64,000 nt of DNA from Candidatus Scalindua sp. SCAELEC01 (lineage in GTDB: Bacteria; Planctomycetota; Brocadiia; Brocadiales; Scalinduaceae), in NCBI GenBank assembly GCA_004282745.1, contig SHMT01000012.1, positions 29,168 through 93,167 on the forward strand. The letters are read 5' to 3'. Numbering within the stretch: the stretch's first letter is position 1; each line of letters starts with the position of its first letter. Below the pieces are notes generated by a model, which did not search any database, was not told where the DNA came from, and worked only from the letters and a program-made list of their open reading frames with translations. The position numbers and the translations under genes were made by a program. Shown one piece after another: positions 8,351 through 62,924 of this stretch.

Positions 8351-8479
8351 TAGTGATTGAACGAAAACTGCCCAGGTATAAGGCACGTAATAATTCCGTA
8401 ACCGGAGCGTACTCAAGCACGTGAGGATTACGGAATTATTACCGTAACGCAGTAGATGGGTAGTTTTCGTTCAATCACT
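8351..8479. repeat. family A palindromic element (A1)
   Basis: About 128-bp imperfect palindrome bounded by AGTGATTGAACGAAAAC and its complement. Conserved family A inner blocks are present (GTAACCGGA, GCAGTAGATGGGTAG), with apical loop between GTAC and CACGTG. It directly abuts the feoB stop codon at 8480-8482. Confidence 0.85.
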
Positions 8480-33254: not shown

Positions 33255-33480
33255 ATGACTGAATATAAGATTGGAAATGTTAAATTTGATGCGACAATTG
33301 CAGTTCCTAAATCATTTGGTCCCGTTATTTACGAAATTGTGTATGAAGCTATAGCTACAGTGTCCAGGTGTAGCCATTAACTCATGAGCTAAAGAAGCAT
33401 GGTTTAAATGTCTAAAGAGAAGTTCCCGTATCAATTGAATATGATGGGATAAAATTCGATGAAGAATGGAATATACTCAT
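33255..33480 (+). pseudogene. GxxExxY-family (PD-(D/E)XK-like) gene remnant
   Basis: From ATG 33255 the frames read VPKSFGPVIYEIVYEAI, then after a shift LTHELKKHGLNV, a stop, and REVPVSIEYDGIKFDEEW, the start of GxxExxY proteins (LGPGLLE.VYE, HELKKRGL, VPV.Y.G). A frameshift, a stop and loss of the catalytic C-terminal part, where a family C element begins, make it non-functional. Confidence 0.72.
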
Positions 33481-33639
33481 CTCATAATGGTTTTCGGATA
33501 AAATCCGAGATAAAATTGAGCGAGTAAAGTCCTCGGCGCCTTTTGTCCGGGGATAATGGCCCGCCTGAACGACATGTCGGGCAGGCAACCAATATTTGGT
33601 TTCCGGTAAAACCGAAAACCAAATCGGTTTTAGTATATC
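33471..33639 (-). repeat. family C element (C3)
   Basis: ATATACTCATCTCATAATGG to ACCAAATCGGTTTTAGTATA, with a GC-rich insert (GGCCCGCCTGAACG...GTCGGGCAGGC) as in C2. It truncates the GxxExxY remnant. Confidence 0.8.
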
Positions 33640-34322: not shown

Positions 34323-34585
34323 TGTGGTTGAACCAAAACTGCCCGGATATATTAAAACCGATTTGGTTTTCGTCTTTTCAATAAACCAAATCATAGTGAT
34401 GGTATCCCCAGACAAAACGCCGAGGACCTTACTCGCTCCGTTCTAACTCGGCTTTTATCCGAAAATCATTACGAGATGAGTATACAAGGCGCGCAATCAT
34501 TTCGGAACCGGAACGTACACAAGTACGTGAGGATTACGAAATGATTACAGCAACGCAGTAGACGGGTTGTTTTCGTTCCATCACC
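34323..34585. repeat. family A element (A4) split by a family C element
   Basis: Left arm TGTGGTTGAACCAAAACTG (34323-34350) and right arm from TACAAGGCGCGCAATC to GTTTTCGTTCCATCAC (34481-34585). Removing the C copy at 34349-34482 restores GCCCGGATACAAGGCGCG, the normal family A sequence. It separates the convergent macrodomain and tatA-side genes. Confidence 0.85.
34349..34482 (+). mobile_element. family C element (C4), nested in A4
   Basis: TATTAAAACCGATTTGG to ACGAGATGAGTA, flanked on both sides by TA. The TA corresponds to a single TA in uninterrupted family A copies, so target duplication of TA is indicated. Confidence 0.8.
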
Positions 34586-38352: not shown

Positions 38353-38481
38353 TAGTGGTTGAACGAAAAGTGCCCAGATACAAGGCGCGTAATAATTTCG
38401 TAACCGGAACGTACTAATGTACTTGAGGATTAAGAAATTATTACAGCGACGCAGTAGATGGGTAGTTTTCGTTCAACCACT
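38353..38481. repeat. family A element (A5)
   Basis: TAGTGGTTGAACG to CGTTCAACCACT, 129 bp, short form. Apical loop GTACTAATGTAC. Lies between the flavoprotein stop and the tetraheme cytochrome start. Confidence 0.85.
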
Positions 38482-39128: not shown

Positions 39129-39277
39129 TAGTGTCTGAACGAAAACCCTGTGTTTGAACAAAAAGTGCCTAGGTACAAGGCGCGTAACAATTTCGTAACC
39201 GGAACGTACAATTGTACTTGAGGATTTCGAAATTGTTGCAGCAACGTAGTAGATGGGTAGTTTTCGTTCAAACACTA
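39129..39277. repeat. family A element (A6), long form
   Basis: 149 bp from TAGTGTCTGAACGAAAACCC to GTTTTCGTTCAAACACTA. Nearly identical to A9 and A11. It occupies the gap between two convergent genes. Confidence 0.88.
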
Positions 39278-42359: not shown

Positions 42360-42508
42360 TAGTGCTTGAACGGAAACCCTGTGTTTGAGCCAAAACTGCC
42401 CAGGTACAAGGCGCGTAACAATTTCGTAACCGGAACGTACCCTTGTACTTGAGGATTACGAAATTGTTATAGTAACGCAGTAGATGGGTAGTTTTCGTTC
42501 AAACACTA
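42360..42508. repeat. family A element (A8), long form
   Basis: 149 bp from TAGTGCTTGAACGGAAACCC to GTTTTCGTTCAAACACTA, apical loop GTACCCTTGTAC. Here it lies 200 bp before gltA and not at a visible gene end. Confidence 0.85.
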
Positions 42509-44062: not shown

Positions 44063-44212
44063 TTTTCCACAGGGGCTCCGTCTCAGCTATCCGGAGAGCA
44101 AAAAACGGTTATGATGGGTACAAAAAACATTGACAAAATTCTACACGAGTAGTGTAAGTAACAACAAATACCTTAAACGGTAATTTGATCTGTTTATTTC
44201 ACAATTTTTTCC

Positions 44213-44899
44213 TCACTTATCTTCACTCCTCAGGTGGTCTGAAAATGAGATACCCGGGCGGGCGACGCTCTTTTTGGCGGGGACAGGCAAGAACGACAGG
44301 TTATTCTTTCCTGGGCCCTCTTCCCAGCTTTCAATTCCTACTCCCTTCGATTTCAGGGTTCCTTTTGTACTTTCGACAACTCCGTTTGAATATTTTTCCA
44401 CTCTTGATGCAGTCAGGTCGGTGCAAACCACTACTCGAGCTTTTCCATCAGAGATAAATTCTACAAGTTTTTCCGCCGTCACTTTAACGCAATGCTCAAG
44501 CAAGAAACCCGCAACTACAAACTTATCAATCCCGTCCCTCATGTCATCATATACTGCATTCGCAAATTCTTTAGAGGAAAAGGCATTCGCCTCACATTTA
44601 GTTGTGATGGAGCGCAACTTAACATTCGACAATTCGCTGATTACTCTACAGTCTTCGTTAGCACCCGGAACACATAGATTGGCGAGAGCATCATCCAGGT
44701 TTCCACCGGTAAATTGACCTGCAAAATATTCAGACTTCACAAGATGCGTTCTAGAAGAGATTGCCGCGGCCTGGGTAATTCTGGGGATTGTATTTCTGAT
44801 CTCGGCGAGTTCCCTCTCACCATACCTCTTTGCAAGAGACCCGCTTAGTCCGCAAAATCCGACCAAGGGATCTATAAGAATTAGTGACTTATTATCCAT
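44213..44899 (-). CDS. isochorismatase-like cysteine hydrolase
   Basis: About 228 aa from ATG 44899 (MDNKSLILIDPLVGFC); a frame extending to 44950 would add residues translated from the inverted repeat at 44907-45029. The triad is Asp in LILIDPL, Lys in TTKCEANAF and Cys in AGFLLEHCVKVTAEKL. Such enzymes cleave amide or ether bonds (nicotinamide, isochorismate, carbamates); the substrate is not readable. The last 30 codons or so (PVPAKKSVARPGISF...) are translated through a family D repeat and are probably not part of the original protein. Confidence 0.82.
   Translation of the reverse strand: MDNKSLILIDPLVGFCGLSGSLAKRYGERELAEIRNTIPRITQAAAISSRTHLVKSEYFAGQFTGGNLDDALANLCVPGANEDCRVISELSNVKLRSITTKCEANAFSSKEFANAVYDDMRDGIDKFVVAGFLLEHCVKVTAEKLVEFISDGKARVVVCTDLTASRVEKYSNGVVESTKGTLKSKGVGIESWEEGPGKNNLSFLPVPAKKSVARPGISFSDHLRSEDK
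44253..44318. repeat. family D repeat (D2) inside the cysteine hydrolase 3' end
   Basis: CCGGGCGGGCGACGCTCTTT through AGGTTATTCTTTCCTGGGCC matches D1 at 19620-19685 closely. It lies in frame within the coding sequence. Confidence 0.75.
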
Positions 44900-44906
44900 A
44901 TTACCA

Positions 44907-45029
44907 GAATGCGGAGTTGAGGAGCAACATTGAAATGTTGTCTGACTCAAACGACTTGTTCGCCTCGCCTGCGGCGGCCAGGCCGTTGCTCCTCAACTCC
45001 GCATTCGCACCGCCGCAGGCGGGGCGAAC
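44907..45029. repeat. two interleaved inverted repeats (pseudoknot-like topology)
   Basis: Arm 1 (44907-44928) is perfectly complementary over 22 bp to arm 1' (44985-45006; GTTGCTCCTCAACTCCGCAT...). Arm 2 (44958-44977, GTTCGCCTCGCCTGCGGCGG) pairs with arm 2' (45010-45029) with one mismatch. The order 1-2-1'-2' cannot form two nested hairpins. It lies immediately upstream of the hydrolase start. Confidence 0.8.
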
Positions 45030-45321
45030 GCTGAGGTGAGGTGCGCCGTATGGCATATAAAATAATGGGAAAAAATAAAATAAACACGGAATCTAAAAAT
45101 ATAAAAATCGCAATAGATAAAGGCGTCACCTCCAGTGACTGGTTAGAAAAGAATTAAAAACCAAGATTAAAGACCTTCCCCTGTTCTTTCCAATCCTTTT
45201 TTTGTCATTATCGCTTTTGATTTTATAATCGTCAATTGGAAATTCGTTGTTTGGTGCTTTGTCAATAGATTAGGTTTGACCCCAAGAGAGCCTCCTCTGA
45301 TGGTATCCTACTGCCTGTGTA
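45030..45321. other. intergenic region without supported gene
   Basis: A 35-codon frame from ATG 45050 to the stop near 45157 lacks a ribosome site and a recognisable family. A repeat tip (TTTGTCAATAGATTAGGTTT, 45257-45276) relates to 14777-14800. Confidence 0.35.
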
Positions 45322-45843
45322 TTATAAAATAGTTGTTTTCAATAAATTGGGGAGATCTTCAATCCCTTTTAAGCTTACCGTTGTTCCAGTAATACTAGGG
45401 GGAGTTTCTTCTCCCACATATGGAAAACCTTTTTTTAATATATCCCACATCTCAATAGCTAGTTTTTTACATTCTTCGTCTCCACAAGCTCTAAAAGTAC
45501 ATACCACAATTAAAGTAGCTAAAAAATATTCACCTGTCACTTTTCCTTTTAGAGTTTGTTTTTGAGCAAATGCGAGGAGATCGTCCCAAAATCCAATAAG
45601 CCACATACTACTATCAAGAGCAATGCCCTGTTCCAAGCATCCATTCTTTACTATAGTTGCTTGAAAGACAATGTCACCTATTTGCTCGTCACTTAACTCT
45701 TTTAATCTGTCATTTAGTTTTATAAGATAATCATTCGTGTCCTTGTGCATCTTCCGCGATGCTTCACCTATTTTCAGCATTCGAGCTATTGGGTTTTTCT
45801 TCTTTAAAGCTTTTTCCATAAGACTCTTTTTCCATCTACCCAT
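45322..45843 (-). CDS. hypothetical protein, mostly helical
   Basis: 173 aa from ATG 45843 with GGGGGAAAATATG as ribosome site. Basic N-terminus (MGRWKKSLMEKALKKKN), then predicted helices and a central hydrophobic stretch (EYFLATLIVVCTFRACGD) that could be buried or membrane-associated; two Cys-containing patches. No family recognised. A fragment resembling the end of a serine recombinase precedes it by 15 bp, and a family A and another palindrome lie further upstream, so it may be part of an accessory segment. Confidence 0.6.
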   Translation of the reverse strand: MGRWKKSLMEKALKKKNPIARMLKIGEASRKMHKDTNDYLIKLNDRLKELSDEQIGDIVFQATIVKNGCLEQGIALDSSMWLIGFWDDLLAFAQKQTLKGKVTGEYFLATLIVVCTFRACGDEECKKLAIEMWDILKKGFPYVGEETPPSITGTTVSLKGIEDLPNLLKTTIL

Positions 45844-45992: not shown

Positions 45993-46501
45993 TGAGCAAG
46001 CAAGAGAATAGTAGCATTGACATCTCGATCCTCTAATTTATGAAAAGCATATCCATCAAATTATGGTATATTTCTGTGTGGTACGAAAACTTGTAGATTG
46101 AGAAGATTCTAATGCCCAGGATGAGGAGCGCGTTTTTGCGACTGCTCAATCCGTTTGTTGGCCAGGTGATGGATAACTAAAAGCTTTATTAGCATGCGCT
46201 CCTCATCCTGGGCAATATCAAGTTTCTCGATAATGCATCAATTGCAATGATATCCAAATAAATCTGCATATCAATCAATAATAAATTTAACACTTCATTA
46301 TGGGTGCAGGAAAGAACAATCTAAAGAGTCAACTATACACTGCCAAGGGTGACAAGTTTGAAGTGGGTCAAATTAAAACCTAAAAGATAGTAACCGTTGA
46401 TGGGAATTTTTCATCTTTTTTTTGCTATTGACAATTTGTAATAGCGGGTTATATTAAAGTTGCGGGTATCCATAATGCAGTTTTAATGTGAGGTTATTAA
46501 C
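45993..46501. other. intergenic region with palindrome
   Basis: Holds the 19-bp inverted repeat at 46113-46214 and GGGTGCAGGAAAGAACAA (about 46303-46320), also found near 50945-50960. No gene seen. Confidence 0.4.
46113..46214. repeat. 19-bp inverted repeat, 64-bp spacer
   Basis: TGCCCAGGATGAGGAGCGC (46113-46131) and its exact complement GCGCTCCTCATCCTGGGCA (46196-46214). Flanking sequence extends the symmetry imperfectly (GAGAAGATTCT versus ATCAAGTTTCTC). Unrelated in sequence to families A to D. Confidence 0.75.
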
Positions 46502-46650
46502 TAGTGTCTGAACGAAAACCCTGTGTTTGAATGAAAAGTGCCCAGGTACAAGGCGCGTAACAATATCGTAACCGGAACGTACAATTGTACTTGAGGATTT
46601 CGAAATTGTTGCAGCAACGTAGTAGATGGGTAGTTTTCGTTCAAACACTA
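46502..46650. repeat. family A element (A9), long form
   Basis: 149 bp, TAGTGTCTGAACGAAAACCC to GTTTTCGTTCAAACACTA, apical loop GTACAATTGTAC; nearly identical to A6 and A11. Confidence 0.88.
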
Positions 46651-46759
46651 ACTAACGTTCGATTTGGAGGAGAGAAAAGCGAGACATTAAAAGGTAAAAT
46701 AGCGCGAAGAGCCTCACATAACTCTTTATAAGGTTTTTTTGGGATGGGAGTAATTAGTA

Positions 46760-51852: not shown

Positions 51853-52140
51853 GGTTACAAACTATTCAGATACTTAGTGTTTGAGCTAAAACTACCCACC
51901 TACTGCGTTACTGCAACAATTTCGTAATCCTCAAGTACAAGGGCACGTTCCGGTTACGAAATTGTTACGCGCCTTGTACCTGGGCAGTTTTAGCTCAAAC
52001 GCAGGGTTTCCGTTCAAACACTACTTACTTTACCTCTTTTTCCCTGAGATAGGCAATTTGCTCACATGAAGTCCTTTTTTTTACGTCTCAATTTTTCCGA
52101 TTAGTTCCGCACTTCCCTCATATCGGACTCCTCCAGATTA
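51853..52140 (-). pseudogene. degraded 3' end of a pentapeptide-repeat gene, split by A10
   Basis: GTTACAAACTATTCAG before the element matches 53585-53600, and TGCTCACATGAAGTC...CCCTCATATCGG after it matches 53657-53730 of the intact gene on the minus strand. Frames are broken. Confidence 0.65.
51875..52023. repeat. family A element (A10), inserted in a gene remnant
   Basis: 149 bp, TAGTGTTTGAGCTAAAAC to GGTTTCCGTTCAAACACTA. It splits a degraded copy of the 3' end of the pentapeptide gene found intact at 53593. Confidence 0.88.
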
Positions 52141-62775: not shown

Positions 62776-62924
62776 TAGTGTCTGAACGAAAACCCTGTGT
62801 TTGAATGAAAAGTGCCCAGGTACAAGGCGCGGAACAATATCGTAACCGGAACGTACAATTGTAATTGAGGATTTCGAAATTGTTGCAGCAACATAGTAGA
62901 TGGGTAGTTTTCGTTCAAACACTA
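62776..62924. repeat. family A element (A11), long form
   Basis: 149 bp, TAGTGTCTGAACGAAAACCC to GTTTTCGTTCAAACACTA, nearly identical to A6 and A9, with apical loop GTACAATTGTAA. It lies in the divergent region between photolyase and the second htrA. Confidence 0.88.

Follow-up and report, generated by a model that had tools for sequence, protein, structure and literature searches.

The question raised by this locus is what a set of interleaved inverted repeats represents directly upstream of a hydrolase gene in Candidatus Scalindua sp. SCAELEC01. Within the window, i.e. the whole 64,000 nt stretch of contig SHMT01000012.1 that was analysed, the original prediction placed two arm pairs at 44907-44928/44985-45006 (1:1′) and 44958-44977/45010-45029 (2:2′) in the order 1-2-1′-2′, able to form a pseudoknot or two alternative hairpins, and suggested a structured leader RNA, a protein-binding site or a recombination site. 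Both arm pairs were recovered in place, with 22/22 and 19/20 (95%) of the positions paired, respectively, and the site does lie directly upstream of the hydrolase start (ATG at 44898 on the minus strand, ca. 10 nt from the repeats, hereafter element A). Single-strand folds of positions 44900-45035 with DNA parameters gave z-scores of −7.0 and −6.6 for the two strands, and 0/200 shuffles folded as well on each strand; the inverted repeats of element A are real and far beyond chance. Judged by sequence comparison, element A is very probably a non-coding integron cassette, for which an integron integrase (IntI) would act in trans. The guess of a recombination site was right in kind, the best reading of the site being an integron cassette that carries its attC, and not primarily a leader RNA.

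The own genome (4.59 Mb, 104 contigs) contains an identical copy of element A (122/122) on contig C56, inside dhaL, where the match stops at the ends of the element, and a further copy (84%) on contig C52. From the limits of the identical copy the repeated unit is 44908-45029, and the movable unit is read as 44910-45028, with the edge G and TT as target bases. Arms 1′ and 2′ are read as the 5′ end of the cassette, whereas arm 2 contains the R″ box and arm 1 corresponds to L′/R′. A second, related element, assigned to family B, is situated 1.1 kb from element A at 46110-46217. The features are listed in the direction of the minus strand.

46218-46290, minus strand: attI-like remnant preceding the B element, limits approximate; similar to other attI-like flanks
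46110-46217, minus strand: truncated family-B element; 104 nt match B unit positions 27-130, 2′ hairpin missing
45322-45843, minus strand: 173-aa ORF before the attC; no Pfam match, cassette role suggested by order and strand
45023-45148, minus strand: attC of the preceding cassette; R″ TTCTAAC at 45148-45142, R′ GTTCGCC at 45029-45023
44910-45028, minus strand: movable unit of element A, very probably a gene-less integron cassette, 119 nt, TTCGCC...CCGCA (5′ to 3′); from the C56 copy and the dhaL junction
45004-45028, minus strand: 2′ self-hairpin, 25 nt, 5′ end of the cassette; from the fold and 94/99 paired cells in 11 distinct family-A rows
44985-45006, minus strand: arm 1′, complementary to the 3′ half of element A's attC; from repeat search, pair counts and fold
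44958-44977, minus strand: arm 2; from the inverted-repeat search
44958-44964, minus strand: R″ box GGCGAAC, within arm 2; at the consensus position, letters deviating from RYYYAAC
44908-44964, minus strand: putative attC of element A, running from R″ to the crossover point; bulged hairpin in the bottom-strand fold
44907-44928, minus strand: arm 1, read as the L′/R′ half of element A's attC, ending A|TT; 3′ part recurs alone in six partial matches
44213-44898, minus strand: isochorismatase-like hydrolase immediately following element A; PF00857 above the cut-off (E = 9.2e-7)

The order on the minus strand is accordingly attI-like remnant (46290-46218), truncated B element, 173-aa ORF, attC (45148-45023), element A and hydrolase (44898-44213). 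The 173-aa ORF is probably the gene of the preceding cassette, as its order and strand suggest. No integrase was found in the 64-kb window by tblastn.

Matches to element A were obtained at E ≤ 0.001 in 12/39 genomes (relatives and own) and at E ≤ 1e-6 in 11/62 genomes of the order, some of these matches being confined to part of the element. The arm pattern was in turn found in six stretches of the named genome collection, i.e. three in Ca. Brocadiaceae S225 and one each in Ca. Scalindua rubra, a RIFCSPLOWO2 planctomycete and a Desulfobacteraceae MAG. Related copies of element A occur in other Brocadiales and on one Desulfobacteraceae contig. Family B gave long matches at 11 places in the own genome, the window copy counted, with short ones besides, and altogether 30 copies (12 A and 18 B) were gathered. 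Six partial matches in relatives covered the 3′ part of element A alone and ended at the crossover point, which indicates that the attC module also occurs independently of the 5′ half. Upstream of these partial matches, an ORF ended at a distance of 5 nt in one case (L022) and of 26, 60 and 135 nt in three others, with no ORF end found for the remaining two. Phages gave no match to 44200-45300, and viral contigs no match to the arm pattern. A plasmid match in a Kitasatospora helicase gene was weak (77.5% over 57% of the query) and was taken as chance.

Other repeats were also observed in the window. Copies of one family (AGTGTCTGAACGAAAAC..., AACAATTTCGTAACCGGAACGTAC...), ca. 55-160 bp long and containing nested inverted repeats, were located at 8352-8479, 34495-34546, 38354-38481, 39129-39277, 42416-42469, 46497-46655, 51879-52000 and 62776-62924, and similar stretches were present on own contig C22. 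Another repeat (ATATACTCATCTCATAATGGTTTTCGG...) was located at 33471-33638 and recurred right after a B element on contig C18 (L039 1622-1727).

When the flanks of the copies were joined, the reading frame was open across the junction at four copies, with no duplicated bases. These were dhaL on C56 (233+72 codons, at G|TT), a YD-repeat ORF on C99 (233+234 codons; family named by eye), an NB-ARC ORF on C96 (208+95 codons), and a shorter AAA_14 fragment in another genome, G006 (52+50 codons). Pfam profiles crossed the junction in all three joined ORFs that were searched (dhaL, NB-ARC and AAA_14, which were named thereby). The sequence at the dhaL junction, ATG|TTAGATGCC, agrees with the R′ consensus GTTRRRY, and a dhaL relative with 61% identity in genome G005 had no insertion at the corresponding place. 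Copies of these elements, as the junctions indicate, sometimes break genes.

The target sites were counted in 23 full-length copies of the two families, leaving out seven incomplete B rows, the window B element among them. The copies were found at G|TT (17/23), G|AT (2/23) and A|TT (4/23), so that G|WT applied to 19/23 copies, related ones included and thus not independent of each other, against a GWT background of 3.8% in the flanks. The unit is bounded by integron-type core sites and mostly inserted at G|TT. The preceding site was attC-like in 5/23 copies (three by similarity; two, A_G012C12a and A_G012C12b, by eye), attI-like in 4/23, and recognisably neither attI nor attC in 14/23, including the Desulfobacteraceae copy. 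Among the seven incomplete B rows, an attI-like flank was present in three and an attC-like flank in one. The G|WT targets, the attI and attC neighbours, and the frames open across the junctions are as insertion by IntI predicts. Loot et al. (2024) reportedly described attG sites and cassette insertion there.

Membership in an array was indicated by the window attC and by the array of S. rubra. The predicted attC preceding element A is well supported; over 120 nt (45027-45146) it was 87.5% identical to one attC site of the S. rubra array, and 71-74% to three more attC sites from that array and own contig C22. On the S. rubra contig, element A stands after such an attC in the same orientation as the array; ca. 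2.4 kb upstream there is an attI-like site, and past that a fragment of IntI. The own genome contains, on C22, an open IntI gene of 443 codons (TIGR02249, 378 bits, over the cut-off), at the attI of which lie the initial 39 nt of a B element. Allowing for up to three mismatches, the attI motif was found in 14/19 genomes (reversed control ≤1 per strand and genome), and an integrase match lay within the locus in 7/30 fetched attI-like motif loci. From these data we infer that IntI did the moving, and IntI is the enzyme that most likely moves the unit. The attI-like sequences of Brocadiales (L090-L119) fell into two types, and apparent cassette genes often came after them. On many contigs of G006, more than 15 near-identical frames of ca. 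253 aa shared the same partial match to an integron-integrase model, and look like a multi-copy element of their own.

The 119-nt unit folded on either strand into two flush hairpins, 2′ (25 nt) and 1′:1 (94 nt), with no unpaired base at the ends. The hairpin formed by 2′ alone (45004-45028) was absent from the original prediction. Of eight copies folded, most were alike, with small gaps in A_G012C12a and B_L056. The pairs were counted in 11 distinct rows of family A on a MAFFT alignment, the 3′ end of which was re-gapped by script and from which one letter beyond the element was dropped in the Desulfobacteraceae row. The 1:1′ stem was paired in 214/226 cells, a base-pair insertion being scored partly as gaps and row C52 being off by one column, and 2/22 pairs were changed on both sides. 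The respective values were 94/99 and 0/9 for the 2′ self-hairpin, and 185/219 and 1/20 for 2:2′. In nine distinct rows of family B, 1:1′ was paired in 155/171 cells (3/19 pairs changed on both sides) and 2′ alone in 78/85 (1/10), whereas for 2:2′ the sole part tested, the 7-nt R″/R′ core, was paired in 54/54 (0/7). Within-family covariation is modest, since few pairs changed on both sides; the original prediction had turned on arms present in relatives and varying with compensating changes, and copies are present in relatives and such changes occur, but they are few, so that this check favours the prediction in part.

The double-hairpin plan was kept with different arms in A, in B, in one element of genome G032 and in one beside the Desulfobacteraceae copy. 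This recurrence across groups may say more than the within-family covariation, with few cases at hand. The scan for double hairpins covered fetched loci mostly picked for similarity to A or B, and the two further groups that it gave, one in L080, a weakly A-like locus, and the other in L084 next to an A copy, do not count as independent; the extras were one unrelated match and the L084 A copy read on the other strand, and the control gave two matches in shuffled sequence. On the Desulfobacteraceae contig, a second double-hairpin unit with other arms (L084 5427-5584) was located directly after the A-type unit. Aligning A with B elements in both orientations was uninformative.

These counts bear directly on the pseudoknot, in which 1:1′ and 2:2′ would form together as the functional form. 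The 1-2-1′-2′ order and the near-perfect arms of the window copy speak for it, but in family A 2:2′ is the least kept pairing (185/219 against 214/226 and 94/99), while in family B only its 7-nt core was tested. In the established integron model, the R″/R′ pairing, which equals this core, is needed by any cassette on the cassette circle, and outside the core 2:2′ was less well kept. We therefore consider a pseudoknot highly improbable as the conserved form, and the wording "two alternative hairpins" proved apt, the conserved form being 2′ alone plus 1:1′. That element A would act as a structured leader RNA or another cis-regulator of the hydrolase (promoter, terminator or attenuator) is suggested by its position directly before the ATG, and by the promoter activity of gene-less Vibrio cassettes described in PMC11014356. 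We find this quite improbable, as copies stand before unrelated genes and inside genes, no Rfam family reached the gathering score (0 matches in the window), and 44850-45350 held two promoter-like sites (1.1 expected) and one terminator-like site (0.6 expected), none of them inside the element.

A hairpin element of the REP or IS200/IS605 kind, mobilised by a Y1 (HUH) transposase, was considered in turn, and the own genome had eight Y1_Tnp matches, two of which were less than 1 kb from B elements (C18 and C30), above chance by a rough hand estimate. This origin is nevertheless improbable. In the stretches searched at five loci, no A- or B-like sequence was found beyond the Y1 transposases, and the elements neither flanked nor matched the ends of a Y1 gene at both sides. 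The targets are G|WT, attI and attC, with no fixed tetranucleotide as for Y1 elements, and the C18 transposase appears to sit in another interrupted gene downstream. This IS200-type Y1 gene (C18:138709-139062, L126) lies ca. 360 bp downstream of the B element, apparently within that gene. A MITE derived from a DDE transposon was rejected, as the unit ends are not mutual inverted repeats and no bases were duplicated at four copies.

For element A as an integron cassette, the proposed course is that the 3′ half would serve as attC; the 5′ half comprises the self-hairpin 2′ followed by 1′, complementary to the element's own attC. Moved by IntI, the cassette would appear both at array positions and within genes, and no target duplication would accompany its copies. 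The bulged attC stem folded in most of eight copies. In the window copy, the two-hairpin fold reached −42.3 kcal/mol against −8.9 kcal/mol for its own attC fold, and because of this difference of ca. 33 kcal/mol a lock on excision is proposed, by which the two-hairpin fold would mask attC and limit excision, so that the element would persist and spread as a MITE-like passenger. Such limiting of excision is a tentative and rather doubtful step of the model, and the 1′-attC pairing may be a side effect of the way in which such units originate. Against the cassette reading, element A's attC has A|TT at its core instead of G|TT, and its R″, GGCGAAC, does not conform to RYYYAAC. A masked attC makes mobility harder, not easier, to explain. 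Further points against it are the 14/23 copies without assigned attI or attC, the 4/23 at A|TT, and IntI near only 7/30 motif loci.

MITEs and REP elements are small, non-autonomous, hairpin-forming and multi-copy, as is element A, which differs in having integron-type core sites at its ends and no signature of terminal repeats and target duplication. Gene-less or ORF-less integron cassettes are already known, according to PMC8876359 and PMC11014356; they share with element A the lack of an ORF, an attC at the 3′ end and the occurrence in arrays. Element A differs by a 5′ end complementary to its own attC, by the two flush hairpins, and by one family having many copies outside arrays. The attC consensus (R″ RYYYAAC, R′ GTTRRRY) and the naming of the R″ position follow PMC12901181, and cassette insertion at secondary or attG sites is known from PMC4618277 and PMC12901181; PMC8352920, PMC11641012 and PMC2727003 were also drawn on. 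Insertion at GWT-like sites outside integrons is common to those cases and to the present one, whereas here a single tiny gene-less cassette appears to recur at such sites in one genome. Neither for double-hairpin cassettes nor for the integrons of anammox bacteria was any literature found, which is weak evidence of absence given the thin coverage of subscription journals; within the literature searched, the double-hairpin, multi-copy form of gene-less cassette looks new.

The copies seem to show that one tiny cassette has inserted naturally and repeatedly inside ordinary genes, at sites resembling integron cores. It is possible, if somewhat unlikely, that these units are self-locking integron parasites, i.e. 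gene-less cassettes the 5′ end of which pairs with their own attC and masks it once inserted. If so, the host IntI would spread them to attI, attC and secondary sites across phyla, genes would be broken, and the units would constitute a MITE-like burden peculiar to integrons. Provided that pairing with its own attC is of consequence, a cassette could adjust in cis how mobile it is.
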